From Symbiodinium sp. CCMP2592 (taxonomy: Eukaryota; Sar; Dinophyceae; Suessiales; Symbiodiniaceae), in NCBI GenBank assembly GCA_905221615.1, contig CAJNDT010003513.1, positions 654,277-718,276 of the forward strand: 64,000 bases of DNA. Reading direction: 5' to 3'. Positions within the stretch are counted from its first letter, which is position 1. Each line of letters starts with the position of its first letter. Of the stretch, positions 35,136 to 56,667 are shown piece after piece. Both the position numbers and the translations under genes were made by a program. The notes below the pieces were generated by a model. The model was not told the origin of the DNA, did no database searches, and saw only the letters and a program-made list of their open reading frames with translations.

Positions 35136-35213
35136 TCAATTCTCGTCGTCGCTGGCATCTAAGAACACGTCGCCCATCGTCGCCTTCCAGCCATCTATGC
35201 CCATAGCCATCTC
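35136..35213 (-). CDS. CobW-family GTPase exon 21 (stop)
   Basis: Encodes EMAMGIDGWKATMGDVFLDA then an acidic end and TGA; M-G-x-x-x-W-K followed by GD is the usual C-terminal pattern. Acceptor GCAG|GAG. Confidence 0.88.
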   Translation of the reverse strand, partial: EMAMGIDGWKATMGDVFLDASDDEN

Positions 35214-37115
35214 CTGCTTGCTTGCTGCCTTTGGGCTTCTGGGCTTGGTGGGATCACAGGCTTCGGGACACCAGTCCGGCCCAAGTTTCTGCGCGGAGTT
35301 CGCCATGATGGCTTACTGGACGACTACCGTGGGTCTACTGTGGTAGAATGTAGGGTTTCTATAGTAGGAATTACTATTATGACTTAGGGAAGTATCCCCC
35401 ATAACAGTACATCTAGGATACCCAGTGACCTAAGAATAAAAAGGCCTCTCTTTTTGGTATTGGGTAACTTTATAAGGAACCTAGGACTACAAAAAGGGAA
35501 TAAGGGTACTACTGGGCATCCTAGGAGGAGTCGGGTCTCCTCATCTGTCAGAAGACAGCTGTCCAGGATCTGCTGGACCTTCTCGTGCTTAAGGTCCTTC
35601 CCGATGAAGACCATGTCCTGCTCAACTGATGAGGGGTGTATTATAGTGTCATTTACGAATACGGCTGAGAGGGTAAAACGGTTGCGACTTAAGGGGTGAG
35701 GGTTTGTTTAGGGTCTACTGATGGGCTAAACCCTAAACCCTAAACCGTTGGGGGGCCCTAAACCCTAAACCGGGGGCCAGGGAGTTGTCTCGGGATCTGG
35801 GTCCGACAAGGGTGTCCGGTGCTGTCAGTCGCCTCTCGTGCTTGGTACCTTGGATTGAGGGTAGGGCTAGGGTTTTAGGGTTGCAATTTGAGGATGCCGT
35901 CCCTAAACGCTATGAACCCTAACCCCAAACCCTTAAAGCCCAAACGGGTTTATGTCCGCGTGGATGCGTGGATGACCAGTTCTAGTATGCCCACGAGGTA
36001 TCTTTATCTGACCGCTGCAAATTAGGGCTCATTGCTGCGATTTCTTTACAACGAACATGTATGCTTCGAAAGTGGGATGCTGGTGAAGAGCCAAACCACA
36101 GCTCGACAGCAAGAAGTATCCCCTCTACACCTACAGTGCGCCAGTTTTGTTCATCAGCCCATACTCAGTCTTAAACCCTAAAATCCTAAACCCGAAAACG
36201 CCAAAGCCCTAAACCCTGCTCCTGATCCCTGAACCGTAAATTGCACGGTTTGGCAGGCCTGTCTCCGGTCTCCGAAGGGAGGATGAAAGTCTTTGCAGAC
36301 TGTGGCCTGGGAGACCGAAGAAGTCGAAACTCCTAAAGGATGTAGGTTAGAAGTTGCCCGCCCCCACCCTGTAATAGTGCATTATATTAGGGCCCTGCTA
36401 TATTCCTACTCTACCACTATTACAGGGTGGGGGCAGCTTCGAAAATGTTGGCTTTAGGGTTTCTGGCTTTGGGTAGAAGCTCTACTATGCCCTGTACTAC
36501 CTCCCTGACCCTCCTGAGAATGAGGTCCCTTCAGTCGATATCCCACTAACCCTGAACCCCAAAAGCCCTTAGCCCCCATAAATCAAACTCCCAAAACACC
36601 TTAAACCCCCAAAAACCCCAAGCCTAAACCCTGAAGCCACAACACCCCCCAAAACCCTGAAGCCCTTGAACCCCTACTCCCCTTTTCGACCCCTTTAAAG
36701 AAACCCCTAAAACCCACTTTAAAGAGGCCTAAACCCCTGCATGCGCAGTTCCAAAATCCCCAAGTCGAGTTGCACGCTCCGCTTCGGAGCCGCCCCAGGC
36801 CGCGGATTGGAGAGTCAGCCAGCGTTCCTCTGGCTCTTGAGGTTTTGGGCTTTAGGGTTCGAGGGTTGGGGTTTTCGGATTCAGGGTTTCGGGTTTAAGG
36901 CTGTAGGATTCAGGGGTTAGGGGTTTAGTGTTCAAGGGGTAGGGTTTAGGGAAGTTGAGGGCTTAATTTGGGTCAACGGGTCATCAAGAGCATCCAGGAG
37001 CTTGAAAGGAGAAGGAATCTTCCTTCTTAATTAGCGTGTCCTGACTCTAAGGTCGATAGATAGATATTGACAGATAGGAAGGTAGGTGGATGGATGGATG
37101 GATGGATGGATGGAT

Positions 37116-37153
<38 letters not shown>

Positions 37154-40100
37154 CCTGTCAGACCAAAAGGAGTTACGTTGGAGGTTTTCCCTGATCAAAA
37201 ACACCGGAAGCATTGACAGTCGAGTCGCTGGAAACTGGATCGTGAGCATGTTGCCGGCCTTGCGCTGGGTTTTGAGTGGGACCACCCAGCCCAGCGCCCA
37301 TAAATTTCAGGGTTTAGGGTTTGAAACGTTAAGCCCTAAATCCTTAAGCCCGGGGCCCTACACTGTAAAGACAGCTACAAATTCAGTACCGAACATTGTT
37401 GACTGATCCTTACAAGACAACCTACTGTAACATGCAGCACTGTGGAATCTCTGGAGATGATGTCGATGGCTTTGTAGGCTTTGCTTTTATTATGCTTCAA
37501 AATACCCTGCAAAACCATAAAACCACTTAGCCCCTAAGAACCCCCCCCCCCCAATAACCCCCATCACACCCCCAAAACCCTAAACCCTGAACACTCAGCC
37601 TGACTGAAGATGCCCATGAGGTCGTGCCGGTTCGCCAGCCACAAGAATCCTGTTTAGGGTTTAGGGGCTCAAAGGTGTAGACCCTAAACCCTAAACCATA
37701 AGCCGCAAGAATCCTGTTGAGGGTGTAGGGGTTGAGGGGGGTTGAGGTTAGGAGCCCCGGCAAGCCCATGGGCATTAGGGTTTAAGGGTTTGGAGTTCAG
37801 CGTTTAGGATTTAGGATTCAGGGTTTTGGGGACACTATGGAAAGCATACATACGGGTTTATGCAGGTTTTCCTGGCCTTAGCGTTCGGGTTTCATAGAGG
37901 TTTAGATGGCTTTTGTACAGTTTCATACAATTGTATTGAAGAACTTGCCCAGGAGCCCTAAACCCCGAAAGGAATCGTTAAAGCAATCCTGAAAGGAACC
38001 CTTAAAGGAACCTTTGGGAGCGCCTTTGCTCCGGAGGAGGCCACCGAAGGTCTCCTCACGAAGCCGCTTTTTCTTGGAAGCCTCGGAGACATTAATTGGA
38101 AGCCTGTTTAGAGTTTAGAGCTTAGGGTTTAGCGGTTTAGGGCTTAGGCCGTTTAGGGGTTTAGGGTTTAGGGGTTTTGGGTTTAGGAGTTTAGAGGTTA
38201 AAGGGGCTTAAAGGCTTTAGGGTTTAGGGGTACTCCGTTTAGGGTTGAGGGGTTTAAATTTAGAGGTTTAGGGTATCGAGGCAGGGCTCCCTTTCTTTTG
38301 CTTTAAGGGTTTAGGGCTTAGGTTATCTCTAAGCGTTTAGGAAGCCAGAAAAAATTCTTATTTTAGGGGTTGAGGATTTTAACGTCCTGTTGAGGGTTTA
38401 AGTTTTGGCTCTCTGGCAAGGGTCTAAGGATTTGGAGATGGGGTTGGTAGTTCGGGGTGTCCAGCGGTGCTAAAGCATAAGCTCCCCAGCATGTTTTTCC
38501 TTCGGATCCATGGAAAAAAGGCTTCGGGTTTAGGATTTGCAGGTACAATGACTGCGGACGGTATAGTCCTGCAGGGCAAGCCATATACCCGTATAAAAGT
38601 TTAATCCTTGAGCTCAAGATCTCTGAGTGCCAGGGCCGGTGACAACCCTTTAGGGGTGAGGGGTTTATAGGGCTTTAGAAGATCAGGGCTCAGGGAAAAC
38701 ACTGGTCTTCTAAGCTTGCTTGCTGAGTTACCTGGCTCAAACGGGAGGATGCAGAACGCTTAAGCCGTACACAGCTACATGAGCTGACCAAACCCACGCA
38801 ACCTTAAACCCGCACAGCAGGCCTTAAAGCATTAGCAGGGGACTGTGCCTCGACACCCCAACTACCCTCCGTTGCAATGCCTGAACTGTCAGCACAGGAT
38901 GCTTGACGGCTCCGGCAATATTCGTAGTAGCCTTTTCTGAGCCCTTATGTCAGTCCAGACACTAGACTCTAAACCTCAAAGCCGTATAGATGGCTCTTGC
39001 CATCCGGGGGCTTCTGCTTGACTTCGCCGTATTGCCGCCTCGCTGTGGGCCTGCAGAAGGGGGGGTTTAGGTTCAGGTCAGTACTATAGCATAAGGGGCC
39101 TATGTAGTTACGCTACTTGGGGGGGATAGTATAATGAGTATAATGGGAGGGTCTGGGATCTACCGATCCAAAAGCGGATCTGCATTGCCCGGGACCCCAG
39201 AACCCGAAGCGGCAGAGTTCGCCATGAGCCCGCGACGTGGTTTCGCGATGAGTCATGGAGGATCGGGTGTGCCGCAGTTCTTGCCATCGTGGTGATGACC
39301 ATTGCGCACAAAATAGCAACTGCCCTGGCCAAGTGCACAGACGAGGGCGAGTGGTGGAAGTAGATCAAAGTCCAGCGGGAGAATATGGAGGAGACGCAGA
39401 CAGAAGCTAGTGCGATCACTGCAGGCTCCCTGACTGTCAAACGCAGTTGCTATCATCTGTCGCTTGAGGCAAACGCTTGCCACCGCTTCATGCCCATTCT
39501 GCACGGGGAGCCTGGGGATCATGTTGGTCACTGTGTCTCCGTCCTTATCGGAACTGACGTGCTGCTCTTCATTGCCTCGGCTGGTTTGGGCAGTTTGGCC
39601 CCGGCCCACTGGAAATCAGAAGCCCTGCGTCGGCAGCTTGCTCAACGAGTACTGTAGGGCGCTCGGCGGCGTGACGGCCTGCTGGTGGTTCCAAGCTGGG
39701 CACGTCTACTTGCATGGAAACTTCATCAAAGATACTACCCCGGAGATAGCTTTCTGCTTTTGTTCTGTGCCTCTTAGACGTGTTTTGCGTCATCGGGTTC
39801 GTCAAGCAGGCAGACTCCGTCCAGAAGAGGGGTGGGAGTTGTGAGAGTTGTGATGGCATCGGCCATAACGGCGCGAATGTGGCATGTTCCCCGAGTGTGG
39901 TCGCTGCGGATGCTGATTTATAATCAATGCGGGAGTCGACTTGGTTGGCCTCTTTTGGGAGAAAGCTTGTGAAACTCAGCCTTCGAGTCATGGACTCCGC
40001 AACCGCCCGGTAATTGGGACAGCCTTGGCAGCCAGGCTGCTGCTGGGCTGCGTTGTCATGTTATCGCGGCTAGGTACTGGTACACTGTTCCCATTGCCAC

Positions 40101-43100
40101 GAAGAAGGAGTCAGACAGTGTTTTGCATAGCGGAAAACGCGTTCATTGCCACTATGTTTTTCGTGAGTACGGCTCGTGCGTACGATGGTTCATGGAGTGT
40201 GCTACCGCAGCAGAGCTGCAGAGCGACAGTCAGTGCACTTCATGCCGAGTGTGACGGCATTAACATGAACATGCAGGAATGGCCTTTGGGATACGCCATG
40301 CGGGGCCTGAAGCTTGCAGTTTGCCTCTCTGCCCCATGGGGAACAAGGCTCAAGCTTTTAGCATGTCTGTTATGATGTCAGTATATTACCTCCAAAGAAG
40401 GTGTTCCAGCATCTCGGGTATGTCGTTAGATAGTCGTGTTGTGCAGGGTGGCCTCATTCATACCCATGAGGAAAATCCTGCGCAGTTGTGCGCCTGCTTC
40501 GCACTGCACGTTGAGGCTTCATTTCGATTCCAAGTGCAGCTCATGCGTATGTTATGGTGTGACATCTTATTGATTTTGAGTGTGAAGCGTTGCTAGTGCT
40601 ACGGTTTTTCAGCTCTGTGCTACCGGCTTCACGCCGCACAGCATCTTGCGCACCTCACTGTGCGATCGCCCAGATTACTGCACGGCTCACTGCTGAGCAG
40701 TTTGCGAGCGCAAACTGAGGATTTGCACTTGCCCCGGAATTCATCTGTGGAATAGGCGCGTTCGTACTCGGACCCACAGCCTCACGAGGAGGAAGAAGAA
40801 GAGGATAATGGGCCTCAAAACCCTATTCTAATTCTTATGGCCCCTATACAGTACGTGAGGGAACCCCAACTAACACTGCATACTCAGGCCCGAATATTAT
40901 GCTCGAGCCTCGTTTTCCGCGTCGGTCTCGTGAAGGACAAAGAACTTCCCGACAAAGGTTTCGTCAAACCGGACGGGGTGGAAAGGCCGGCGAGCACGGT
41001 ACCTAGCCCAAACACGAAACCCTGAATAGTAATCCTATACGCGCCAAACCCTCACGGCTGTAGGTCTTTGAGCCTTTGAGCTGATAAGCAGGTTTAGGGT
41101 CAGGCTTCTGGGAACGCGTGCGGGATTTGGTACAATACATGCTGCGGCCCGTTCTAATTTTGTACAAGGGTTTAGCTGTTGAAATCAAGGCCTATCCCGA
41201 AACCCGGAGCCCTGACTAGACTGCCAAAGTGCAGAAAGGACGTGATGCCGAATCGGATCTCGTGTCGGGTCTGTCGCGCTGCAGGAGCCAGAATGACATC
41301 GGAGATACCTGGGCGTTAAGCCCCTTTAACTTCAAGGCTCCTTGGGGTTTAGGGTTTAGCTGATCTTAATGTTCTTTGCTGCGGGGGATGCGGTGGCATG
41401 TGATGACGCGGTACTTGTACGTACTCGGACAGCTATAGGGTCATGCCACAACCGCACCCTTTAAAACCCTGAACCCTGACACCGACGTAAACCCTAAGCC
41501 CTAGCACCTAAACCGTGAACACTAAACCGTAAGACCGAAGACCTAAACCTCAAGCCTTGCGCCGGAACGCCGGACTCCAAACCGCTTGACTGCGGTACCA
41601 AGCCCGCAACATGACTCAAAGCCGGATCATCCCTGAAGCCCCCCAAAAACCGCGCGACTCTCCCGATTGCAATGAACTGAACCCCCAGATCGCAAGACCT
41701 CAATGCTGAAGACCTGAATGCCCCCGGTTTCGGTGCCCAGAGATTTTGGACCTCCCTAAACCCTAAATCCTACTTGAATCCTGAACTTAAGCTTAAGGTA
41801 TGCACTCACAGATGTAATGGCCCAGAGGGTACTCACCCAAACCATAGCGGGAGCTCCTACAATATGTAACAGTACTTAGGATCCTTTGGGTGGGGACCCA
41901 GCCAGGATGCCTCTGCTTTTGGTGCTCGGCTGCCGCTTCAACGGTGCGCAGCAAAAGGCCTCTCCCTTCTGCGCCTGCGAGCCAATATAAGCTAAGGCTC
42001 CATGTACCCACATAGTATATACTTAGGCCGTCGTCAAGTACCTATATAGCCCTTTAAGGCTTAAGTATCTACTACAAAGGCACATGGAGCCTTTGGTCTA
42101 GGTTTCTGAGTAGGCCCGGAATGATTAGATTACCCTTTTTCCTACTCTTTGGTTTTAAGAAGGGACCCGAAAAAGAAACCCGACCAATAGGCCACTACTC
42201 ATGAACCTGGTAAGGTACGGGCCGAAGCTGGTAGGGTGTAGGGTGTAGGGATTGCATTAATGTAGGGGCCTGAATAATTACCAACACTCTTTCTGCTCCT
42301 TTTTCAAAACACAGTATGATAGGCTCCAAAACGCTTTTCTACTTGTCAAGGCCCCCAAACATGAGACCAACGATCCCCCGCGACTCCCACCCCGGCCCTC
42401 GACCGCGATCACGACAGAGGAGCTGAAATGATCCAGGTCGGCCCCCGAATACCAAAGTCGACCCCTGCTCCAGAAGCCTTCTTAAGAATCAGCATACGGA
42501 GCCCAAAATCAAGGCCACAAAACCCTAAACTTCCTAAACCCCTATAAACCCCTAAACCTCTAAACCCTAAACCCCAAAACCCTAAACCCCTAAACCCTAA
42601 ACCTCTAAACCCTACAGTAAACCCTAAAAAGGAGAGAAAGGGCAAAGCAAGCTTCGGCTCGGGGGCCCCGCCTAACGAAACCCTGGTCCGTCACGAAACC
42701 CACCTTTGGGGGACCCCCTAAGGCCCTTTGTGGGGACCCCTACCCTACAATGGGCTATATAATGGGTATATAATGGCTATATTATGGGGCTTCAAGGGGG
42801 CTTCAAAGGGGTCTTAAAGGGCCCCTAAACCCCAAACCCTTAAACCCTTAAACCCTAGACCACCTTTGGAGGACCCCCTAAGGGCTCCTTTGATGTCCAT
42901 ACGAGGGTCTCTAGGTGCTCCCTTTAAGGGTTCCTTTAACTTCTGGCCCTTATCAGTCGGTAGTTGGGGGATAATAGCGGGTTTTTGGGGGTTCAGGTTA
43001 CTCAAGGACTTTCGGGGTTCAGGCTTCGAGTTTAGGGGATTAAGGTTTAGGCTGAAGCGTCGAAGAATAATCTTCTGACATCATCAGCAGCAAGTAAATA

Positions 43101-44465
43101 AAATTAGAATCCGACAAGAACCTCTGAAAGGGTTCAGGCCTTCTGAAGGCAGCAAGAGGCCATCCAGGTTTCGCCAGCGTCACCCTTGTCATTCTCAGCT
43201 TCCGCCAGTCCATGTGTCTTCCAGCCCTGGAAATCCTTAGCAGCGACTCAAAAAGCACGTGAACAGAATCACAAGGTTGGAATATCCCCGAATTTCCTTT
43301 AAACAAGCCAATAAGGTAGCGATACCCCACCCAAAAGTTCACGTACGGCTGCGTGTTTGGCCTCTGAAGGGCTCTCAGGCTATAGTGATTAGTGTTTAGG
43401 CTTTAGGGGGTTTGAGGGTTTATAAGATTTATAAGGCTTAAACTTTAGGGCTGTGGTTCGTGGTTTCAGGTCTCAGGGCCTAGGGCTTGACGACTCTCGG
43501 GCCAGAGGGCTTTGCGATAACTGGGAGTTTCCAAAAATAGGGGACCCTACCATAATACCCTAAATAGTAGGATCCTTATTATATGGACCCCAAAATAGGT
43601 ACCCCTAATTTTCGGAAACTCCCAACTGAGTACCTAGGCCCTCCATCTACCCTCTATTAGACCCTCAATGCCCCTTATTTCCGACCATATACCCCTAACT
43701 TTCGGAAACTCCCAACTGAGTATGCAAGCCAAAAAGTCAGAACTTGGCTGCTCCCTGCTTACGACGCGTATGAACCCCCGGACCGGCCACAGGGTGCGCG
43801 CAGTGCAACCTTTACCCGACTTCATGTACTAGCTATAGCACCTTTTAGAACCATACAGAACATAATATGCTTTTTCTTCTTTGTCTTATATGAACCACAA
43901 GTAAACTGAACGAAAACCAGTCCTAAGGGGATTACAACTAGCATAACCCTAAACACCATACCGTCTAGCATCCTCCGGCTTGTAGAGCTTGGTGTCGACC
44001 ACCTGAGGAGGGCTTCGCAGTCCGGGCTTTTGACACGGGATGCAGTGCTTTGGGGTTTTGGGCTCACGGTTTAGGGATGTTAAGGGTTTCGGGGTTTCAG
44101 GGTTTAGGACTTAGGGTTTGGTTGGTGTTTAGTAGGGTTTAGGGTTTGGGTGAATTTGGGGTCATGGTGCAATTAAGCTCTGACGGCATGGGATGCTTTC
44201 TTGCAGGGTTAAGGGGCTTCCGACTCCCAGGACAGACAGCTCAGAGTGCTCGGGAAGTTTCTTCTTGAGGTTCAATCGTAGAGCCTTTAACTGTACACCC
44301 AGAAAAAGAAAGGACAGCAGACGGTTGCGATGAACACTGAACTATGTTGGAAGAACCCAGCTAATACGAGGAATCGTGTGTGTGTGTGTGTGTGTGTGTG
44401 GGGGGGGGCGGGGGGGAGGGGGAGCATGGCGACTTTGTGGGGCTCCTGCATATGGACAGCTCAGC

Positions 44466-44496
<31 letters not shown>

Positions 44497-47400: not shown

Positions 47401-50400
47401 CAGGCCCCCTATGAATTATTCCGACTCCGGGCAGTCCTGCAACTGCGATTTGCTAACAAGGTCCGTCTTGTTCAGGACGACGACGTTCGCGTACTACGGC
47501 GAGTGGGTTTATGTCTAGCACATATTGCAAGAAATCCGGTGAAAAAGACAACAACACCAGAGGCCCCAAACAAAGATCAGAAATGTGAGAATGCCTGATA
47601 AAGTATCCTACAACTAGATATGGGAGTTTCCGAAATTTGGGTACCTTATTTTGGGGTCCTTGTAATAAGGATCCTACTATTTAGGGTACTATATTAGGGC
47701 CGCCTTTTTTCGGAAACTCCCAGATATTCCTCAACCCAAAACCGTTTGATGCTCAAGAGGTCGGTGTTGTGCGCGACTGAGGTCTCAGGATGTGTAGAAT
47801 TCCGTTCAAATTAATAAAGGGAACTCCAGAAAGTTGGAATATGAATTAATGGTAGGATCCCCTATAATTTACCTTAAAGGGGTTACGATAATGATATTCC
47901 AACTTTCTGGCTTCTACTTTACGAGTCTTGTAGACGACCCAAAAAATACGTGCCGGATGATTCAACAGACCCAAACAACAAGGGTCCATCTACCCAAATA
48001 ATATATACTTTCGGCCCAAAGTACCTATATAGGGACTACTTTGGGGCCAAAGTATATACTATTTGGGTACATGGACCCTAAGGGAAACAACAAGAGGTTG
48101 TGGTGCCCTGGGTTCCACAAGTCCCCTAATGTACTGGGAGTTTCTGAAAATTAGGGGTACCTATTATGGGGTCCTTTGGTTGATGATATAAATCCTGCAT
48201 GACCCATAATAATAAGGAATATACCATAATTCCCATAGTTTAGGGTCCTTAAGGTAATGCAGGATATATATCATCCACCGTTAGACTAAGGATCCTACTA
48301 TTTAGGGTACTATGTTAGGGTCCCCTATATGTTCCATGGCTTGCTACTCACGAAGTTGGGGATTCTGGGACTCGCGCTTTCCGGGCTCCGGGTTTAAACA
48401 TGTTGGGAATGAAGGTGGAGGCTCGGTTTTGTTTTTTTTTGAGAGCTCTTGTGCGCCTGCACGAAGGTTCGGCCTACGCAAGCCTATTTAAGGCGAGCCA
48501 ATTCAGCCCCCTTTCACAACTCCACTTGCAGGGAGCAAAAGCGGAGGCTCGGTTTAGGGTTTAGGGTTTAGGATGGGCATTACCTAAACCCCCCAAAAGT
48601 AAATACGTTGAATAATGGCTCAAAACCTACAAAGGTTATTATTCTACCCAGACTATAATAGGATCCCTAATATGATTTAAGGTATATTCCTTAATTAAAG
48701 GATTTTGGAAGGTCTGGGTACATCCTTCTGGGGCCCAGGTATGGTCGCGAATGAAAACGGAAGCCCAATCTGATGCTCGCCCAGCAGGGCAGCCACACTC
48801 GCAGCCTTCCTACACCCTTTACGCTAGGATACCCAGTAACCTAAGAATAAAAAGGCCTCTCTTTTTTGGTATTGGGTAACTTTATAAGGAACCTAGGACT
48901 ACAAAAAGGGAATAAGGGTACTACTGGGCATCCTAGTAACGCTTCAGTCCGCTACTCCCAGAGCTTCCAAAATCCCTTAATTAAGGAATATACCTTAAAT
49001 CATACTAGGGATCCTATTATAATTGAAGGTATATTCCTTAATTAAGGGATTTTGGAAGGTCTGGGCTCTACCCTAAACCCGCACTACTTACTCAAACTGC
49101 CTATAATCCTCAATCCTATACCCGCTGGAAGCGCGAACCCCGAACGGGCCCTTAACTTTACATGTGGGTGGTTGTCAAAATTATGGTTGTGTTTTGGGTA
49201 CCCCAAATATTAGGTGCCGTATTAAAATAAGGACCCAAGAAGGAACCCTAATATTGACAACCACCTATGTATGTGAAGGCTTTGGGCGAGGGTGAACTGC
49301 GCGGACCTGGGCTTATGGGCTAGGTTGAGCCGACCCTTGACGCAGGCCCCTTAGTCAGCATTGCATTTTCCCGGGATCTATACGGTTTGGGGGAATATGT
49401 AGGCATGTCCGGATAGGCATGTCTTTAACACTGACGGCATATTGAAACAATATGTTTGGGACGTCGTTAATGGGGCGAGATGCCTGAAACCCTTGTCTTC
49501 CTGATTGCGAGATGCTTAAGTATCCCTAAATACTAAACCCTAAATCCTTGGGTCAGTGTCTGTCTACGTACCATACAGAAAGCTCAGACCTAAACCCTAT
49601 ACCCAAAAACAGAATCTGCCTCGATCTGTTCCGCAAGGAGCTGCGGGAAGCTTTCGTTCTTGGGACCCTGTCGAGCATGATACTTTCGGCTTAAAGATCG
49701 GAGGCCTCAAAAGGTGGGATGAAGCTAAGTAATTAGGATGAAGGATCCCTTATACAAGGACTCGTAATTGGGAATATCGCACCTATCTTCATCCTACCTT
49801 TGGAACCCTGTGAAAAGATAGTTTAGGGTTTAGGGGGCTCAATCATGTTTCTGTAAGTAATAAAGGTTCCTTCCATACAGAGTCTATAGAATTGCAGTTT
49901 GATTCAAGATACATGCCTATGAGGGCTCCCTTTACATAAACAGGGTTCCTGCGGGCCCTTAATGATAAGGGTACCCGTTCTGCTACGAGATGGTTTCAAC
50001 GAGGAGGCCCCAAAATGAAAAGGACAAAAGGCTAGTACTCAGGAACCTGGGTCCTATACGGCTCCTAGACCTAAGAGTAGCCTAGGAATAAAAAGGGTGC
50101 CCTTTTTGGTTTAAAGGGTGTTATAGGGGAACCTAAACCCTAAAAAAGGGAATAAGGGCCTACTCTGGGTCCCAGGCTCATTATAAACACACATCGGGGC
50201 CCAGGGGGGTTGTCAGGTCTCGGGCCGATGGTATATATCGGGACTTAGGGTTTAGGAGTCTCATGTTTGGGTCTTGGTGCCATGGCTTCTGAGGCTTAGG
50301 GTCTGGGGTTTGGAATCCGAAGACTCTGAAGTTTGGGGGCATACCTTATCCCGCAAATTCGACAGGTTGTAAATCAGTTCCAAGCCCGGAGCTGAACTCT

Positions 50401-53400
50401 AAACCCAGAGCCCTAATCTAAATACACAGAACAAAACCACACAAACTCACGGATGACCCTTTCTTGGAGGATCATGGGACTTAGTACGTAAGGTCCTAAG
50501 TACCTTAATTGGGGCTATAAGTAGTTCTAAGTAGAGTTACCTTACTTATAACCCTAGCTACTAAGTCCCATGATCCTCTAAGTAGACCCTAAATCCCCTC
50601 TTATACTACAACCCCTATAGATCCCTTTAAAGGAGCCCTTTAAGGAGCCCTAGCTACTAAGTCCCATGATCCTTTAAGTAGAAGCCTCCGAGCCTACCAG
50701 GACCCATCTCCTCTCAGTCACCGACCTGGAACACTACAACAAGGGCCTCAAGAATTCCATGTGGGAGTTTCCGAAGGGGTACCTTATTTTGGTTCCTTAT
50801 AATAACGATCCTACTATTTGGGGTGCCATATTAGGGTCCCCTATTTTCGGAAACTCCCATGTAGGGTAAAGGGAACTCCAGAAAGTTGGAATATGGTTTC
50901 AGGGTAGGATACCCCATAATTTACCATAAAAGGGTTTAGGATAATCATATTCCAACTTTCTGGCTTTTCCCTTAGGGTTTGTGGGTATACTCTGGTACAG
51001 TCATGCGAGGAGCCCTACAAGACTTGGTGGAAACATATCGCGATCTTCTCGACCCGTGGAAACGGAGGGGTTTCCTGAATCGTCAAAGTTCTAATTACTG
51101 GGACTGGGATGTTCTAGGTAGTAGGAGTTGAGGGCTTTTTGTTTTAATCTAAGCGCTTGGGAATTTAGGTTCGTCGAGTAAGGGTTAAGGCGGCTTAGGG
51201 TGGACTAGTTGTACAACCCCCCTAAACCCTAAACCCCGAAACCCGAAGCCCCTAAACCCTAAACCCAGGACCGGCGCCTTTTTGACCCCTTCCAGGTTGG
51301 CGAAGAAGTCCCCACAGTCGACGACGGTCACGCATGTATCCAGTCGTGCTACCTGGCGCATAACGGGGATTCATATGGCCTAGAGGCTGAGGGTGTAGGG
51401 TATTGCTATCGAAAGAGGATTTACGGTTTAGGGCTCTTAGTGTTCAGATTCAGGTTTGGGGGTTTCGAAATATACGCAAAAACTGCCTACTTGGCTGGAA
51501 GCTTGACCCAGAGAGTTACGATGCTGACCCCGAAGCACCTGGTAGTGAGACTCCAGGCGACAAGATAGCAAGCAACCACATACTTTGTCCTCGTAGTCAA
51601 TCTCACACGGGAGAACATCCAAACAACGGACACGAGCACCCAACCAAGCAGATAAAGGGAACTCCTGAAAGCATACTTCCTAGTCCCAAACCGTAAAGCC
51701 CCTTGTTTTATGTTGCACTGGCCATCCCGAAATCGGAGCCGACCCGACCTCGTTCAGACCTTCGGGGATGTGGCCTTCGGGGTCGTCGGCGAAGATCCGC
51801 GCGATCTGCGAAGGCTCCGACACTCCCGATGCCTCGATAATCATGTAGTCCTGCAGTGGGGTTTCGAGAGCTTCGGGCTAAAGTTTGTTGAGGGCTAATT
51901 AACCCTAAACCCTAAGCCTCTAAACCCTGAAACCGAAAGTGCTGCGATGGCCACCCCTAAACCCTAAACCTCTAAACCCTGAGACCAAAAAGTGATGCAG
52001 GCCCTACCCATAGACCCCAAAGTAGTTCCTTTTTGGGATTACCTTATAGGATTCTATATATGAACCAATAAAAAGGAACTACTTTGGGGCCTTTGGGTAA
52101 GGTTTGTGTTAAGAGTCTTGCGGTTCGCTAGGAGGGGCTTTTAAAGCCTTTGAAAAGTATTATAGTAGGTAAGATCCTCTTAAGCCCAATAAGAGAAAAT
52201 ATAAAGTGTCCCAAAGCCCTACCTACCCAAAGGCCCCAAAGTAGTTCCTTTTTGGGGGTTCATATATAGAATCCTATAAGGTAATCCCAAAAAGGAAAAG
52301 CCCCAAACCCTAGTTCGGAATCCTGAGCTTAGAAGTCGGCAAAACGCTCGGCCCCAAACCCTGCATCTCTCGACCCTATATACTCTGTAGAGGTGTCGCA
52401 GAACTGTGATTAGAAAACTCCGCTAAAGTTTTAAAAGAACCCATGAAACCTCTTAAATCGTTGAATTTGAGATTAGCAAGTTTTCAATCTAGCTCCTTAT
52501 GGAACCCATTGATAAAAGCGCTGGCCGCAAGACGAACCGATAAACAATTCTCGCTCAAAAAAATAGAACACGCGGTAAGAAGACCCTGCAGGAACACGCC
52601 AAACAGCAGTAAAGATCCTAAACTGTGCTCTTACCCGACCCCTTGACCCTCAAACCTCAACCCCAAAGCCTAAACCCGAAACCAAAGAACCCACAGAAAG
52701 CAACCCTAAAGCCTAAACCCTAAAGCAGACAGACTCTCTCCTTCAATAACCGGGCCCAAAAAAGTTTGAACTTTCTGAGATAGACCAAATGCATAAGGCT
52801 AAAAAGTTTAAAGTTCCCCCATTGGCTATCTGACTAAACGAAAAAACTCCGAGGGTCGAAGGATCCTCCCCTGGCGAGCCCAAGGATCTGATGTGCCAGG
52901 TCATCCCTGGGCGCACACTCTCGGGCTTACCCAAACCCCCGGGAGGATCCAAAAAGTAGATCCCTTCATGGGGGTTCCTATAAAGTACCCTTAGTCTAGA
53001 CCCAAGAGTAACCCAGGCATAAAAAGGATGCCCTTTTTGGTTTAAAGAGGCTTATAAGGGAACCTGAACCCTAAAAAAGGGAATAAGGGCCTACTCTGGG
53101 TCCTAGTAGTAGTATAGGGCCCCAAATTAGAGGATCTACTTTCTAGATCCTCCCGGGGGTCTGGGTAGCTAGGCCATACCCTTCGGCCCCAAAGTAGTTC
53201 CTTTTTGGGGTTCATATATAGAATCCTATAAGGTAATCCCAAAAAGGAACTCCTTTGGGGCCTCTGGGTAAGGCTCCATGGGCCCATAGAGTATGTACTT
53301 AGACCTCGAAGTAATAAGGGATCTGTAGTGTTTAGGGTTTTAAAGCTTAGGGTGGTTTAGGTTTAGGGCTTGGAGACTCTATTATACCTGTCTAGAAAGC

Positions 53401-56203
53401 TGAGTTGCACGAACTAGTGGGCTATTTTAACCAAAGTCGTAGGAACCTAGGGGAAAGTAGACTATCATCCCGGAGGGTCCATATCTTCTACGATTATGGA
53501 ATTAGGTCTCCCAAATCCATTATTGGGATGGTCTTTTGGGGCCTAATTGCATATTGGTAGTGTATATGGACCCTCTTCGTATTCTGGGCTACTGGCATTC
53601 TAGGTCCCTAAACCCTAACCCCTAAACCCCAACCCCTGAACCCTAAACCTTAAACCCTAAGCCCTAAACCCTAACCCAGACCCGAAAAAACCTGGCGCCT
53701 GCAGGACTTCTGTAAGGAAATTGGTAAGGAAGCCTAGATTCCTAGACCCCAACTGCCCTCGAATACGAGGGCCGTGAGGGCTCTATTAAAGGGCCATGGT
53801 CGGGTCATCGTTAAAGGTATCTTGCTTCGGTTTCCGGGTGGTCTTCTAGACCCAAGAGTAACCCAGGCATAAAAAGGATGCCCTTTTTGGTTTAAAGAGG
53901 CTTATAAGGGAACCTGAACCCTAAAAAAGGGAATAAGGGCCTACTCTGGGTCCTAGTCTTTGGGATTCAGGGTGTATGTTTGGGGGTTTTAGAAGGTTTT
54001 TAGCTCTGGGGAGGCTTAGCAGGTTTCTGGGATTTGGCGCCGTGTGCGTTGTGGGTCCTTTTTGGCTTATAGCTTACAAATCGTAAACTCGGTTGCGTTT
54101 GCAGTGTATGTTTCTGTAGATGTGGGCTTCGGGTCACTAAGCATAGGGTTCTCGAATGTCTACCACTATTATTCGATAGGGTTCCTTGCGATATGTATTC
54201 TGGTACTACACCACAAACCCCGATTGCAACTACCCAAACCTTCCAAAATCCACGTATTAACGAATTAGACCTTGAATCGTATCTAAGATATCTTCGTTAG
54301 TTAGGGGATATCCGAAGGTCTGGGTATTACGGCTCCTACAGTATGCTGGTCCGGCCGGGGCACTTTAGGGTGCAGCATACGCAGCCGTTCTGCATGGCGA
54401 CGACCTCGTCGCTTTGAAGCAGAGCCGTCTGGTCAATCAGTGCCTTGTCGATGTTCACCTCGGCCATGTCCTTGGTTTTAGGCTTACCTGCTCAGAAAGC
54501 CTACTTATTCTGAGCTCCTATAATAATAACAATAATAATAATACTAATAATAACAATAATAGTAGTAATAATATTAATAATAGTAAGCCCCATTTGTATT
54601 CACCTATAATCCCAGTCATCCCAATGATCAACATTCTGTATTCAGCCATAATCCCAGTACTCCCAATATGTATTCACCCATAATCGCAATCATTCCGATT
54701 TGTTTTCACCCATAATCACCAAGCCCGAAAAATTGCTTTTTGGATTACAGGTGAGGCTTGGGCTTGCCATGTCCTTCGTTTTGCAGCTTGGGACTTCAGC
54801 CGCTGCTACGAAGCGAGTGGCCCCATTAATTCCGCGGACCACCGGTTCAGGGTTTAGGGTTTTGGGGCTTCAGGCCAACGACTGATAAAAATGTGATCCT
54901 GGCGTGGCGAGTCTAAAAACAAGACCCTTGAACTTAAGAACCCCGCTGTTATTTGGGGGCTTCCATCTTTCTGCTGAGCGTGAGTACCAGGACTCGGATC
55001 TATGAGTGTGAGGCTCAGTTGCGGTTCGGCGGTTCGGAAAACTTTTCAGAAGTAAACCCTGAGGTTGGTCAAAACCCTACACCTAAGCCGAATCTTAGCT
55101 GAGAGTGTCGTTGACAATCACCGCACACTTGAAGTCACCATTCTGGTGCTTCTTCTCCAGGATGTGCTTCAGCAGGGTCGTTTTGCCTCGGGCGAAGAGG
55201 ACCCAGAGAGACCAGGATTAGGGTGTAGGTTTAAGCTGGTTTAATGTTTTATGTCCCTCCGGAGAAGAATATAACCCAACTAAATCCAAAGACTCTGTGA
55301 TTTAGTGTGCGCATTTCCTAAGACTCCTTAGTTTATTGACGGGTATTTCAGATTTCTTTGGGCGGAGGGAATACATGAAAATCGCGAGACTAGAGAAGAG
55401 CCGCAAAGCACCCTAAACCCTAAGGCCCTACGTCTCAGGCATCAGGGTTTGGAGTTTAGCCGAGTGGCCAGCGCCCAAAAAGCCGCAAAGCGTGGAGACT
55501 GGCAGGGGACCCTCGCGCTGAGGCTCCTGGTTCTGCTCCCGGCCTCTCTGCGCCTGGGCTTTACGAGTCTGAGGGTGTACCTGGGGATCCGAAACCCAAC
55601 TGTTTTAGGGGTTATAAAGACCTTATAGTCACGGGGTCACAACCTACCATTTTGTAGGGTTTGGGGTCACAGGTAGGGCTTCAGAGTTCGGGTTTAGTGT
55701 TTACGGCTTTTTGGGCTTCGGTGTTAGGAGATAATAGGGTGTAGGGCTTTTAGGGTTCGGGGTTCAGCGCTTATGCTGTATAAGGCTTAGAGCTTAAAGA
55801 CTTGGGTTGGTAAGGCTCAGGGTTTATAGGGTTCAGGGCTTAGGGCGTGAATTACAGGGTTTAGGGCTTACAGGGTTCAGGGTTTCTAATTTTAAGGCTC
55901 ATGCAACATGCTTATACGGGGACTATGCAGAGACACAAGTAGTGACTAAACGGTAATTATTCGGAGCTGTATATATATATATATATATATATACAGATAT
56001 AATGTTACATATTTATACAAATACGCACGACATTTTTGGCTATAAAATAATGTAGCAGTATATTCATATTGTGTTATATTGTATTAGCTATACCACACTA
56101 TACTACAAGAAAATATAAAATACTATATCATATTAAACCACATCAGACTATCCTATGCTAAATTATATTGGGTTGTATTGTATTATATCTATCTAAAGGT
56201 GTC

Positions 56204-56237
<34 letters not shown>

Positions 56238-56667
56238 TATATGGGTGTCTGTCAACATTATGATCCCTTTTTGGGTCCCCATTATAATACGGCACCTATT
56301 ATTTAGGGTACCCAAAAAGGGGCCCTTATTTTGACAACAACCCATATACTTAAGCACTATGATGGGAGGCCAAAAGGGGGGTTTAAGATTCTTGGGCTAG
56401 GGATTCCTTCATATGAACCCTATTATGGGAACCCTCATCCCTACTAAACCCCCATAGGCTAAAACCCCTTTTGGCCTCCTATGACACTAACGATATAGTA
56501 GAATGTAGGGTTTCTATATTAGGAATTACTATTATGATTTGGGGAAGTATTCCCCATAACAGTACCTAGGACCCTTTGGGCAACGCTCCACTCCCTTCGA
56601 TGGCCTTGGCCTTGGCCTTCGGGCGCTTCGTGTCGGCCGCAGGGATGCGCGCGGCGGGCCGCTTCAT
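35136..56667 (-). CDS. CobW/COG0523-family P-loop GTPase, 21-exon gene (complete)
   Basis: Family knowledge: COG0523 proteins are G3E GTPases that insert or deliver metal (zinc, cobalt) to client enzymes, normally in the cytosol. Seen here: 21 minus-strand exons whose phases join without a break into 450 codons (449 residues). Motifs in order: basic Lys/Ala-rich N terminus; Walker A GFLGAGKTT (about residues 50-58, split by intron 2); VIVND-MAEVNID; the metal-binding GCVCCTL; EASGVSEP; RLDTCVTVVD; the guanine motif NKTD; YRARRPFHP; LRSKGFLWLANRH; SQAG; PPFGDRRQ; MVFIG; stop TGA. Exons: 56667-56587, 55553-55469, 55186-55110, 54470-54364, 52906-52858, 51850-51749, 51352-51287, 49667-49620, 47493-47437, 44284-44225, 44002-43973, 43235-43184, 41278-41233, 41002-40909, 38081-38024, 37649-37600, 37258-37229, 36827-36774, 36306-36259, 35617-35540, 35213-35136. 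Donors: 10 GC, 5 GA, 5 GT. The family is certain; a few exon edges are inferred from phase and family fit. Confidence 0.92.
35343..35410. mobile_element. Foldback element, family K (half)
   Basis: GTAGAATGTAGGGTTTCTAT to CCCCATAACAGTAC; abuts a family E element in CobW-family intron 20. Confidence 0.6.
35413..35524. mobile_element. Foldback element, family E
   Basis: Fills a third of CobW-family intron 20; its end is 16 bp from the GA donor. Confidence 0.87.
35540..35617 (-). CDS. CobW-family GTPase exon 20 (MVFIG)
   Basis: Encodes DMVFIGKDLKHEKVQQILDS followed by CLLTDE. Acceptor GCAG|GAC; donor GAG|GAG (GA). A family E foldback element ends 16 bp downstream of the donor. Confidence 0.92.
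36259..36306 (-). CDS. CobW-family GTPase exon 19 (GDRRQ)
   Basis: Encodes ATVCKDFHPPFGDRRQ; G-D-R-R-Q before V-F-I-G is conserved. Acceptor CCCAG|GCC; donor CAG|GCCTGC. Confidence 0.9.
36361..36434. mobile_element. Foldback element, family O
   Basis: Same arms, shorter interior; CobW-family intron 18. Confidence 0.8.
36774..36827 (-). CDS. CobW-family GTPase exon 18
   Basis: Eighteen codons ERWLTLQSAAWGGSEAER; Trp-rich like this variable C-terminal stretch of the family. Acceptor AGAG|GAA; donor CGT|GCAACT. Confidence 0.72.
37086..37152. repeat. (GGAT)n(TA)n microsatellite
   Basis: Seven GGAT units then about 17 TA units, between CobW-family exons 17 and 18. Confidence 0.95.
37229..37258 (-). 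CDS. CobW-family GTPase exon 17 (30-nt micro-exon)
   Basis: Ten codons AGNMLTIQFP; together with exon 16 gives the family SQAG-x-x-L motif. Acceptor CAAG|GCC; donor taken as CCA|GCG from phase; a GT seven bases earlier is the alternative. Confidence 0.78.
37600..37649 (-). CDS. CobW-family GTPase exon 16 (FLWLANRH)
   Basis: Encodes FLWLANRHDLMGIFSQ. The acceptor lies inside a telomere-like repeat (CCCTAAACAG|GA). A partial copy of the exon border (CAAGAATCCTGTT) recurs about 65 bp away near 37710. Donor CAG|GCTGAG. Confidence 0.92.
38024..38081 (-). CDS. CobW-family GTPase exon 15 (LRSKG)
   Basis: Encodes ASKKKRLREETFGGLLRSK plus one base. Acceptor CGAG|GCT; donor AAAG|GCGCTC. Intron 14 and this exon share GAG|GCT at both ends. 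Confidence 0.88.
38105..38340 (+). repeat. Interstitial telomere-like repeat
   Basis: Degenerate TTTAGGGGTTTAGGG array beginning about 25 bp upstream of CobW-family exon 15. Confidence 0.85.
39070..40830. other. Repeat-free GC-rich island inside CobW-family intron 14
   Basis: 1.76 kb without any telomere-like or foldback repeat, unlike the rest of the window. Several open frames of 90-144 codons occur on both strands (plus 39385-39657, 39464-39844, 39941-40375; minus 39569-39991). No family recognised. Could be a nested gene, a retro-inserted transcript or unique intron. Confidence 0.4.
40909..41002 (-). CDS. CobW-family GTPase exon 14 (YRARRPFHP)
   Basis: Encodes YRARRPFHPVRFDETFVGKF and an acidic tail. 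Y-R-A-R-R-P-F-H-P is the signature of the CobW C-terminal domain. Acceptor CTAG|GTAC; donor GAG|GCTCGA. Confidence 0.92.
41233..41278 (-). CDS. CobW-family GTPase exon 13
   Basis: Encodes RQTRHEIRFGITSF, equivalent to the family's E-Y-G-I-S-S-F strand. Acceptor GCAG|CG; donor CT|GCAC (GC), phase 2, so the Leu codon is completed by exon 14. Confidence 0.85.
42000..42089. mobile_element. Foldback element, family G
   Basis: Complete copy in CobW-family intron 12. Confidence 0.8.
42710..42790. mobile_element. Foldback element, family L (half)
   Basis: GGGGACCCCTACCCTACAAT to TATATAATGGCTATATTATG; one arm lost. Confidence 0.6.
43184..43235 (-). CDS. CobW-family GTPase exon 12
   Basis: Begins DFQGWKTHGLAEAEND. 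KPE+DFQGW restores the family pattern. Acceptor TAAG|GAT; donor AAGG|GTGACG, phase 1. Confidence 0.8.
43522..43624. mobile_element. Foldback element, family B
   Basis: Complete; the right arm plus CCCAACTGAGTA is repeated at 43694-43721, bracketing a family S remnant. Confidence 0.82.
43629..43693. mobile_element. Repeat element, family S (fragment)
   Basis: TAGGCCCTCCATCTACCCTC to ACCATATACCCC; lies between two copies of a family B arm. Confidence 0.6.
43973..44002 (-). CDS. CobW-family GTPase exon 11 (30-nt micro-exon)
   Basis: Only ten codons, VVDTKLYKPE, a recognised family segment before the C-terminal domain. Acceptor CTCAG|GTG; donor GAG|GAT (GA), with GAT repeated at the start of exon 12. 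Confidence 0.82.
44225..44284 (-). CDS. CobW-family GTPase exon 10
   Basis: Twenty codons beginning ALRLNLKKKLPEHSEL. Weakly conserved linker; supported by open frame, matching phase, order in the gene and AG|G acceptor. Donor GGA|GTCGGA. Confidence 0.75.
44376..44420. repeat. (GT)n(G)n microsatellite
   Basis: Twelve GT units followed by a G tract; a TA/GA microsatellite follows at 44465-44496. Confidence 0.95.
44550..44635. mobile_element. Repeat element, family R
   Basis: CCTTTAAAGCTTCTGAAAAT to CCCAAAAGCCTACCTAG; three copies in the window, arms only partly inverted. Confidence 0.65.
44731..44952. mobile_element. Foldback element, family C split by a family D insertion
   Basis: Family C arms at both ends (GGGTGGTTGTCAAAATC / GACAACCACCC) enclose a complete family D element at 44749-44860. 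Confidence 0.85.
44749..44860. mobile_element. Foldback element, family D (inserted in family C)
   Basis: Intact, so it inserted after the family C element was in place. Confidence 0.85.
45042..45128. mobile_element. Repeat element, family R
   Basis: GGCTTTTGAAGCCTTTGAAA to CAAAGCCCTACCTAGC. Confidence 0.68.
45209..45320. mobile_element. Foldback element, family E
   Basis: Complete; flanked on both sides by TTAA. Confidence 0.87.
45801..45922. mobile_element. Foldback element, family B with telomere-like insert
   Basis: Interior holds TTTAGGGTTTAGGGTTTAGG in place of the usual single TTTAGGG. Confidence 0.8.
46193..46305. mobile_element. Foldback-like element, family M2
   Basis: Inverted copy of 5166, with both ends AGTTGGAAACC / GGTTTCCAACTTTTGG. 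Confidence 0.68.
46332..46510. mobile_element. Foldback element, family A with duplicated right end
   Basis: Full element, then an extra copy of its last ~40 bp (GATTCCTTAATTAAGGGATT onward). Confidence 0.8.
47437..47493 (-). CDS. CobW-family GTPase exon 9 (NKTD)
   Basis: Nineteen codons with YANVVVLNKTDLVSKS; NKTD is the G4 base-recognition motif. The acceptor CGTAG|T is one of the few not followed by G; an in-frame TAG just before it forces this boundary. Donor CAG|GACTGC (GA). Confidence 0.9.
47619..47724. mobile_element. Foldback element, family B
   Basis: Complete copy in CobW-family intron 8. Confidence 0.85.
47826..47925. mobile_element. Foldback element, family M
   Basis: Inverted relative to 753; otherwise nearly the same. 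Confidence 0.8.
47983..48078. mobile_element. Foldback element, family G
   Basis: Complete copy; interior GACTACTTTGGGGCC resembles family H. Confidence 0.8.
48136..48330. mobile_element. Foldback element, family B split by a family F insertion
   Basis: Left half 48136-48177, F element 48178-48281, right half 48282-48330; GTCCTT|...|AGACTAAGGATCC reads on across the gap. Confidence 0.85.
48178..48281. mobile_element. Foldback element, family F (inserted in family B)
   Basis: Complete; interrupts a family B element and so is younger. Confidence 0.85.
48655..48719. mobile_element. Foldback element, family A (right half only)
   Basis: Keeps the GGATCCCTAATATG interior and the right arm; left arm missing. 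Confidence 0.7.
48824..48936. mobile_element. Foldback element, family E
   Basis: Complete; 23 bp from a family A element, flanked by ACGC/AACGC. Confidence 0.87.
48959..49065. mobile_element. Foldback element, family A
   Basis: Arms intact; interior is reverse-complemented relative to the copy at 231, i.e. opposite insertion. Confidence 0.85.
49164..49268. mobile_element. Foldback element, family C
   Basis: Complete copy in CobW-family intron 8. Confidence 0.83.
49620..49667 (-). CDS. CobW-family GTPase exon 8
   Basis: Sixteen codons, GPKNESFPQLLAEQIE; LL-x-E/D-QIE precedes the guanine-binding strand in the family. Acceptor ACAG|GGT; donor GAG|GCAGAT. Confidence 0.87.
50065..50174. mobile_element. 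Foldback element, family D
   Basis: Complete copy in CobW-family intron 7. Confidence 0.83.
50465..50583. mobile_element. Foldback element, family I
   Basis: Complete; its right arm is repeated at 50647-50681. Confidence 0.8.
50759..50863. mobile_element. Foldback element, family B
   Basis: Complete; followed within 15 bp by a family M element. Confidence 0.85.
50876..50973. mobile_element. Foldback element, family M
   Basis: Complete, right after a family B element. Confidence 0.8.
51287..51352 (-). CDS. CobW-family GTPase exon 7
   Basis: Encodes VARLDTCVTVVDCGDFFANL then EG; R-L-D-x-x-V-T-V-V-D is strongly conserved in COG0523 proteins. Acceptor GCCAG|GTA; donor GGG|GTC. Confidence 0.9.
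51749..51850 (-). CDS. CobW-family GTPase exon 6 (EASGVSEP)
   Basis: Thirty-four codons: DYMIIEASGVSEPSQIARIF and an acidic loop ending GLNE. EASG-x-S-E-P is a hallmark of the family. Acceptor CTGCAG|GAC; donor GAG|GTCGGG, phase 0. Confidence 0.92.
52006..52099. mobile_element. Foldback element, family H
   Basis: Complete, interior GGATTCTATATATGAACC. Confidence 0.83.
52133..52223. mobile_element. Repeat element, family R
   Basis: GGGGCTTTTAAAGCCTTTGA to CAAAGCCCTACCTACCC; directly followed by a family H element. Confidence 0.68.
52223..52303. mobile_element. Foldback element, family H (right arm lost)
   Basis: Inverted relative to 52006 and truncated after CCCAAAAAGG. Confidence 0.7.
52858..52906 (-). 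CDS. CobW-family GTPase exon 5
   Basis: Sixteen codons reading DDLAHQILGLARGGSF, joining CCTLK in exon 4 to DYMIIE in exon 6 exactly as the family requires. Acceptor CCCAG|G; donor TTC|GAC (GA type), again with GAC at the start of the next exon. Confidence 0.88.
52996..53106. mobile_element. Foldback element, family D
   Basis: Practically identical to the copy at 53846, including the rare AGGCATAAAAAGGATGCC variant: recent duplicate. Confidence 0.85.
53178..53271. mobile_element. Foldback element, family H
   Basis: Complete, same orientation as 52223. Confidence 0.82.
53274..53315. mobile_element. Foldback element, family G (fragment)
   Basis: Left arm only, abutting a family H element. 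Confidence 0.5.
53846..53956. mobile_element. Foldback element, family D
   Basis: Same sub-type as 52996 and the cut copy at 63974. Confidence 0.85.
54231..54326. mobile_element. Foldback element, family A (diverged)
   Basis: Arms ACCCAAACCTTCCAAAATCC / GATATCCGAAGGTCTGGGT; older copy. Confidence 0.65.
54364..54470 (-). CDS. CobW-family GTPase exon 4 (CxCC metal motif)
   Basis: Encodes DMAEVNIDKALIDQ, a variable link, then VVAMQNGCVCCTL, the cysteine motif that binds the metal in this family. Acceptor CCAAG|GAC; donor AAA|GTGCCC, phase 2. Confidence 0.92.
54521..54585. repeat. (AAT)n microsatellite
   Basis: TAATAATAACAATAATAATA; followed by a ~35-bp repeat (CACCCATAATC..CAATATGTATT) at 54595-54720. 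Confidence 0.9.
55110..55186 (-). CDS. CobW-family GTPase exon 3 (KTTLLKHILE)
   Basis: Completes the P-loop (GKTTLLKHILE) and runs to CAVIVN. Acceptor CGAG|GC. Donor GA: the intron starts GAC, and the same three bases start exon 4, so the exact cut could shift by up to three bases. Confidence 0.9.
55469..55553 (-). CDS. CobW-family GTPase exon 2 (first half of Walker A)
   Basis: Gln/Glu/Arg-rich linker, then PLPVSTLCGFLGAG. The Walker A glycine codon is split: the exon ends GCTG|GC and the next begins GCAAAACG. Donor GC. Acceptor taken as CCCAG|GCG; an upstream CAG at 55569-55571 is an alternative that would add five residues. Confidence 0.88.
55969..55995. repeat. (TA)n microsatellite
   Basis: Thirteen TA units; similar at 56203-56242 and 57780-57807. 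Confidence 0.9.
56241..56345. mobile_element. Foldback element, family C
   Basis: Complete copy directly after a TA microsatellite. Confidence 0.82.
56359..56486. mobile_element. Foldback element, family J
   Basis: Near-identical second copy. Confidence 0.82.
56497..56581. mobile_element. Foldback element, family K (half) at the CobW-family intron 1 donor
   Basis: The end GACCCTTTGGGC reaches five bases from the donor of exon 1. Confidence 0.65.
56587..56667 (-). CDS. CobW-family GTPase exon 1 (start codon)
   Basis: Begins MKRPAARIPA and continues into a Lys/Ala/Pro-rich stretch, 27 codons. It is the first ATG in frame ahead of the GTPase core, and no in-frame exon was found upstream. Donor GGA|GCG, phase 0. 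A family K half-element starts within a few bases of the donor. Confidence 0.75.

Follow-up and report, generated by a model that had tools for sequence, protein, structure and literature searches.

The window examined here, i.e. the whole 64-kb stretch of DNA analysed (C3513:654277-718276, from a host assembly of 1,098,105,373 bases (1.1 Gb) in 5,383 contigs), carries a CobW-type gene which is almost certainly real and complete-looking, with an architecture that is ordinary for the dinoflagellate lineage. The gene is, with comparably high confidence, a nuclear one that encodes a COG0523 (CobW/ZigA/YciC-type) G3E GTPase on the minus strand and is interrupted by about 21 introns that follow the usual dinoflagellate splice rule. 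A gene of about 22 exons had been reconstructed by eye from unlabelled dinoflagellate DNA in a first-pass annotation, and that reconstruction stands. What the analysis shows directly is the spliced reading frame with its domains and motifs, the splice rule that its introns follow and the kinship with Nitrospirales-type proteins; transcription and trans-splicing of the gene, and the metal and client protein of its product, are inferred. The new element is a COG0523 subfamily common to a dinoflagellate and Nitrospirales-type bacteria, the architecture having already been published for the group.

The 21-base dinoflagellate spliced leader was searched exactly in the whole genome and gave 429 occurrences (217 + 212) as against none for the reversed control; the source is therefore a dinoflagellate. 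In the 64-kb window, no tRNA genes were found and no Rfam family matched at the gathering thresholds.

Gene structure

The curated model comprises 21 homology-supported exons between 55580 and 35136, with a coding length of 1,461 nt (486 codons plus a TGA stop), several of its junctions being picked by hand; when the N-terminal exon is included, the model has 22 exons and 496-513 aa. The exactly 450 codons in 21 pieces claimed previously were not reproduced at that length. The mean exon is 70 nt and the mean intron 949 nt (range 230-2,827), with 14, 4 and 2 introns in phases 0, 1 and 2, respectively. Coding sequence makes up about 7% of the gene span (1461 (+81) of 21,532 nt), near the 6% estimated earlier. 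The GC content at third codon positions (GC3) in the exons is 0.74 and that of the introns 0.48.

An ATG is present exactly at 56667, where the gene start had been placed, and an N-terminal exon starting from it is plausible. This candidate exon 1 (56587..56667), recognised in the sequence as a Lys/Ala-rich stretch, would have 27 codons if it ends at 56587; the ATG can be joined in phase at seven different G[TCA] donor positions, and homology does not extend to 56667. All exons lie on the minus strand. Exon 2 (55469..55580; VHPQTRK...GFLGAG) holds the first part of the Walker A motif, its 5' end being set by hand at AG|G and homology starting from about 55514. Exons 2, 3, 4, 6, 7, 9, 17 and 21 were detected by both tblastn and spliced alignment and the remaining exons downstream of exon 2 by spliced alignment, complemented for exons 12 and 13 by comparison with the relatives.

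Exon 3 (55110..55186; KTTLLKHIL...CAVIVN) is followed by exon 4 (54364..54470; DMAEVNID...NGCVCCTL), which carries the CxCC motif and matches in tblastn with an E-value of about 1e-6, and by exons 5 (52858..52906; DDLAHQILGLARGGSF), 6 (51749..51850; DYMIIEASGVSEPSQIARIF) and 7 (51278..51352; VARLDTCVTVVDCGDFF), the 3' end of the last being set by hand. A possible further exon of 21 nt, offered as an alternative by the spliced alignment, would be located at 51523-51503. Exon 8 (49620..49667; GPKNESFPQLLAEQIE) precedes exon 9 (47422..47493; YANVVVLNKTDLVSK), which has an AG|T acceptor and a 3' end at either 47422 or 47426, and exons 10 (44665..44730; VKILNPKARVLQARQSRIDVMQ) and 11 (43973..44002; 30 nt, VVDTKLYKPE). 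The first and second CC of a CC...CC insert are encoded by exon 12 (43140..43235) and exon 13 (41914..41974), respectively. Exon 14 (41233..41308; ISDVIL...RFGITSFL) leads to exon 15 (40909..41002; YRARRPFHPVRFDETFVGKFFV), with its 3' end set by hand, and exon 16 (38024..38081; KKKRLREETFGGLLRSK). Additional linker exons may exist between 40909 and 38081, judging from the bacterial homologue L014, in which the linker between exons 15 and 16 has 42 extra residues in two gaps. The C-terminal part is formed by exons 17 (37600..37649; FLWLANRHDLMGIFSQ), 18 (37229..37258; 30 nt, AGNMLTIQFP), 19 (36767..36827; ERWLTLQSAAWGGSEAERAT), 20 (36259..36299; CKDFHPPFGDRRQ; acceptor AG|T), 21 (35540..35617; DMVFIGKDLKHEKVQQILDSCLLTDE) and 22 (35136..35213; EMAMGIDGWKATMGDVFLDASDDEN), the last ending in the stop TGA at 35138-35136.

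Homology searches and controls

In a tblastn comparison of the window with L005-L008, four CobW-type proteins from intronless genes of this genome, collinear minus-strand pieces from 55505 to 35528 were obtained among many chance matches. The collinear minus-strand pieces, with the named motifs in order and a stop-free join to the terminal TGA, are as reported in the first-pass annotation. Its statement that no open frame longer than 30 residues reveals the gene fails for frames measured from stop to stop: those enclosing the 21 exons span 25-107 codons, with 18 of the 21 above 30. The related expectation that annotation based on open reading frames would miss the gene is borne out in part: a genome-wide search with the Pfam cobW model for single exons identified 48 pieces (E <= 0.001) on 28 contigs, none of them on the contig of the gene, but the best tblastn match of the paralogues does pick up one exon (E ~1e-6). 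These 48 pieces represent a large COG0523 family, with some members in long open frames and others split. Two members, L003 and L004, lie side by side on one contig and are very alike by eye, and L008 forms part of a 975-codon frame whose tail is rich in His.

Spliced alignment was performed with a custom aligner that accepts GT, GC or GA donors, AG acceptors and split codons. A profile of the four intronless paralogues alone gave 17-20 exons, did not reach the gene ends and was superseded by a profile of four bacterial homologues (three from Nitrospirales metagenome-assembled genomes (MAGs) and one from a Nitrospiria MAG), which settled most of the model. At an intron cost of 12, the bacterial profile scored 956 in the region, and the controls stayed far lower: 10 dinucleotide shuffles gave 112-148, the opposite strand gave 123, and a different 24-kb part of the window gave 159 on one strand and 133 on the other. 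At a cost of 16 the score was 863, and 60 shuffles gave a mean of 63 (sd 6) and a maximum of 80; a spliced protein-to-genome search with COG0523 proteins and GC/GA donors, proposed earlier as a check, supports the gene. The number of exons varies with the intron cost (35, 26 and 22 at costs of 8, 12 and 16, respectively), and these models disagree at the N-terminus, within the linker that joins exon 15 to exon 16 and over several small stretches. The version with 35 exons, whose linker and upstream exons are doubtful, was rejected.

Splice signals

The 20 donors of the curated model are 11 GC, 7 GA and 2 GT, the donor class being restricted to G[TCA] by the construction of the aligner. Acceptors are of the form AG|G at 19 of 21 sites, which include that of exon 2, picked by hand on this very ground. 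The automatic model (cost 16) gives the G no reward, and 18 of its 21 acceptors are AG|G, where the background rate is 37% (p 6e-6). With equal donor costs the alignment scored 994, with GT and GC only 928.5, and with GT alone 746, at the price of false residues at the junctions. Annotation limited to GT-AG introns, which had been expected to miss the gene, would thus still recover much of the protein, at a lower score and with false junction residues.

When all donors were given the same cost, four further split CobW genes from this genome (L055-L058) aligned with 11 GA, 7 GC and 6 GT donors, and 21 of their 24 acceptors read AG|G. As they follow the same rule, it is a genome-wide property and not peculiar to the gene in the window. 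GT accounts for 2 of 20 donors in the latter as against 6 of 24 in the other four, GC and GA together making up 18 of its 20.

Alternative explanations

The large number of G[TCA]/AG pairs in the region, and the readiness of the aligner to add doubtful exons where introns are cheap (35 at a cost of 8), could be taken to mean that the model is a chance mosaic assembled by a motif-seeking reader. The probability of this is negligible, as the 10 and 60 shuffles, the opposite strand and the other 24 kb of the window all scored at least six-fold lower under the same settings, and the AG|G signal is present though unrewarded. That the locus is a decayed pseudogene, still complete in appearance, is a reading for which the long, repeat-filled introns might speak, but it is highly improbable in view of the retained catalytic motifs and AG|G boundaries and of about 55% identity to bacterial proteins across most of the length. 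The 21 exons also provide 486 codons free of stops and frameshifts, which is no independent test as the model was picked to avoid stops.

Protein family and predicted function

The joined protein matches Pfam cobW with 161.9 bits (cut-off 20.7; E 1.6e-47) and CobW_C with 67.7 bits (cut-off 22; E 8.4e-19), and carries, in order, GFLGAGKTT (Walker A), NGCVCC (GCxCC), EASG (Walker B-type ExSG) and NKTD (NKxD). The best NCBIfam match is ZigA (NF038288; E 7.9e-95), with 318 bits against a cut-off of 600, and CobW of cobalamin synthesis (TIGR02475) stays at 99.6 bits against 332.1. Since the equivalog cut-off was reached in none of the seven matched NCBIfam families, ZigA included, no named function can be assigned. 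A sequence search of solved structures with an earlier 343-aa draft retrieved E. coli YjiA only (two chains, best E 1.5e-19).

In the literature, COG0523 proteins figure as metal insertases and/or metallochaperones (PMC2770081), and the diatom member ZCRP-A responds to Zn/Co scarcity (PMC9010474). Because of these descriptions, a metal-chaperone role is likely for the predicted protein. The roughly 21 introns of the minus-strand gene would be removed according to the spliceosomal rule usual in dinoflagellates (donor G[C/A/T], acceptor AG|G). The predicted product would be a GTP-binding protein that also takes up a transition metal, probably zinc or cobalt, holds it via the CxCC motif and perhaps also the CC...CC insert, and passes it to a client protein.

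Relatives and possible gene transfer

A scan of prokaryotes with six exact 8-residue patterns from a draft query, which may have missed nearer or other bacterial kin, identified five relatives, namely in three Nitrospirales MAGs, one Nitrospiria MAG and one Paenibacillus. Aligned over 455-462 residues, the window protein and the four Nitrospirales-type proteins (L011-L014) are 53.9-56.0% identical; within its own genome, identity is 37-44% for the four YciC-like paralogues (L005-L008) and 38-39% for three others (L001-L003). In a tree of 22 rows the window protein groups with the four bacterial rows with a support of 100/99, the program warning of long branches meeting, this one included. An even draw of 198 genomes of the phylum of L011 from a larger group contained 16 with a match at 1e-25 and just one, G001 (the home of L011), with a match at 1e-100. 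A scan of viral contigs yielded one stretch fitting a pattern and no confirmed relative. Matches were present in 25 phage records, and all those among the matches listed (5 of the 25) were below 60% identity. An own-genome search with the draft protein (72 matches) gave none outside this contig with more than 60% identity over more than 53 residues; with no close long match elsewhere in the genome, the gene appears to be single-copy.

Comparison of the intron positions with those of four split paralogues showed three coincidences within one column, as against 3.4 expected by random placement, two of the three sharing one site and phase (column 441). This outcome would fit independent intron gain after a transfer, the transfer itself being a possibility suggested by the sequences and not a result. 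It is possible, though less likely than not, that a Nitrospirales-like bacterium was the source of the gene, and that, once in an ancestral dinoflagellate, the gene acquired every one of its roughly 20 introns at positions unrelated to those of the paralogues. If so, the gene would be a countable record of intron gain.

Repeats and neighbouring sequence

The telomere unit TTTAGGG/CCCTAAA is the commonest 7-mer in the window, with 316 copies in 64 kb as against about 8 expected (2 x 64000 / 4^7). It occurs at 252 separate sites in both orientations (e.g. 38113-38258, 42502-42618 and 53597-53704), 93 of them within the 20 introns that separate exons 2 to 22. Across the whole genome, GGGTTTAGGGTTTAGGG has 320,576 occurrences as against 59 for the reversed control, and its spread is patchy (0, 0, 0, 20, 38 and 6 units in six 5-kb samples). 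Among the literature matches listed, no title concerned TTTAGGG motifs dispersed within genes of dinoflagellates.

Positions 35410-35524 and 45206-45320 (minus strand) carry two copies, 99% alike, of an element that measures about 112-115 nt and has the inverted ends CTAGGATGCCCAGT...ACTGGGTATCCTAG. When 40 of its 2,125 genome candidates were scored, 39 places besides its own were found to match over 111-128 nt at 95-100%, which suggests a recent spread of the element. A related family is represented at 52995-53107 and 53845-53957 by mutually identical copies. With regard to introners, i.e. introns that are mobile elements in their own right, with element ends at the intron ends, the one high-copy element compared (copy at about 35410-35524) lies inside the intron 35539-35214 and does not fill it end to end.

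Coding-like pieces at 8386-8502 and 3329-3445 (minus strand) give weak matches to GMC oxidoreductase that are correctly ordered but fall short of the cut-off (E 0.16 and 0.07), and perhaps belong to another split gene, downstream on the same strand. Eight further coding-like pieces had no Pfam match.

Comparison with known systems

The architecture of the gene may be set against published norms. Symbiodinium microadriaticum has a mean of 21.8 exons per gene, with an exon length of 109.5 bp, an intron length of 504.7 bp, a gene length of 12,898 bp and GC, GT and GA donors, and its authors adapted PASA and AUGUSTUS to such splice sites (PMC5177918). S. minutum has a mean of 19.6 exons per gene, a GC donor nearly as common as GT and an acceptor AG that is often followed by G (PMC4083563), and a review places GC/GA-AG boundaries in the Symbiodiniaceae at 25-74% (PMC11453091). 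The gene in the window resembles these in its GC/GA/GT donors, AG|G acceptors, about 20 exons and long introns. An exceptional exon size and coding density even among dinoflagellates might be read from its mean exon and intron of 70 and 949 nt against those of S. microadriaticum, and from the 6-8 exons each, over the matched part, of the other four split CobW genes. It is nevertheless very unlikely, as Effrenium voratum genes average 20 kb, 18 introns and 92% intron, with an intron-size peak at 1 kb (PMC11114475). A complete COG0523/CobW gene of many small exons with GC/GA donors is well supported, but the exceptional status implied for it earlier does not agree with the published Symbiodiniaceae norms. 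The first-pass annotation named neither the dinoflagellate affiliation nor the Nitrospirales-type kin.

At the protein level, the product resembles the COG0523/CobW G3E GTPases (PF02492 + PF07683) in both domains and in the order of GFLGAGKTT, CVCC, EASG and NKTD, and differs from them in the CC...CC insert between the two domains and in a gene split by about 21 introns. It has the family and the CxCC motif in common with the diatom ZCRP-A. Among the relatives found, the closest resemblance is to the uncharacterised COG0523 proteins L011-L014, which have the CC...CC insert and a C-terminal GIDxWKATMGDV in common with the window protein, whereas they are bacterial, encoded in one open frame and provided with two extra linker stretches absent from the window model.
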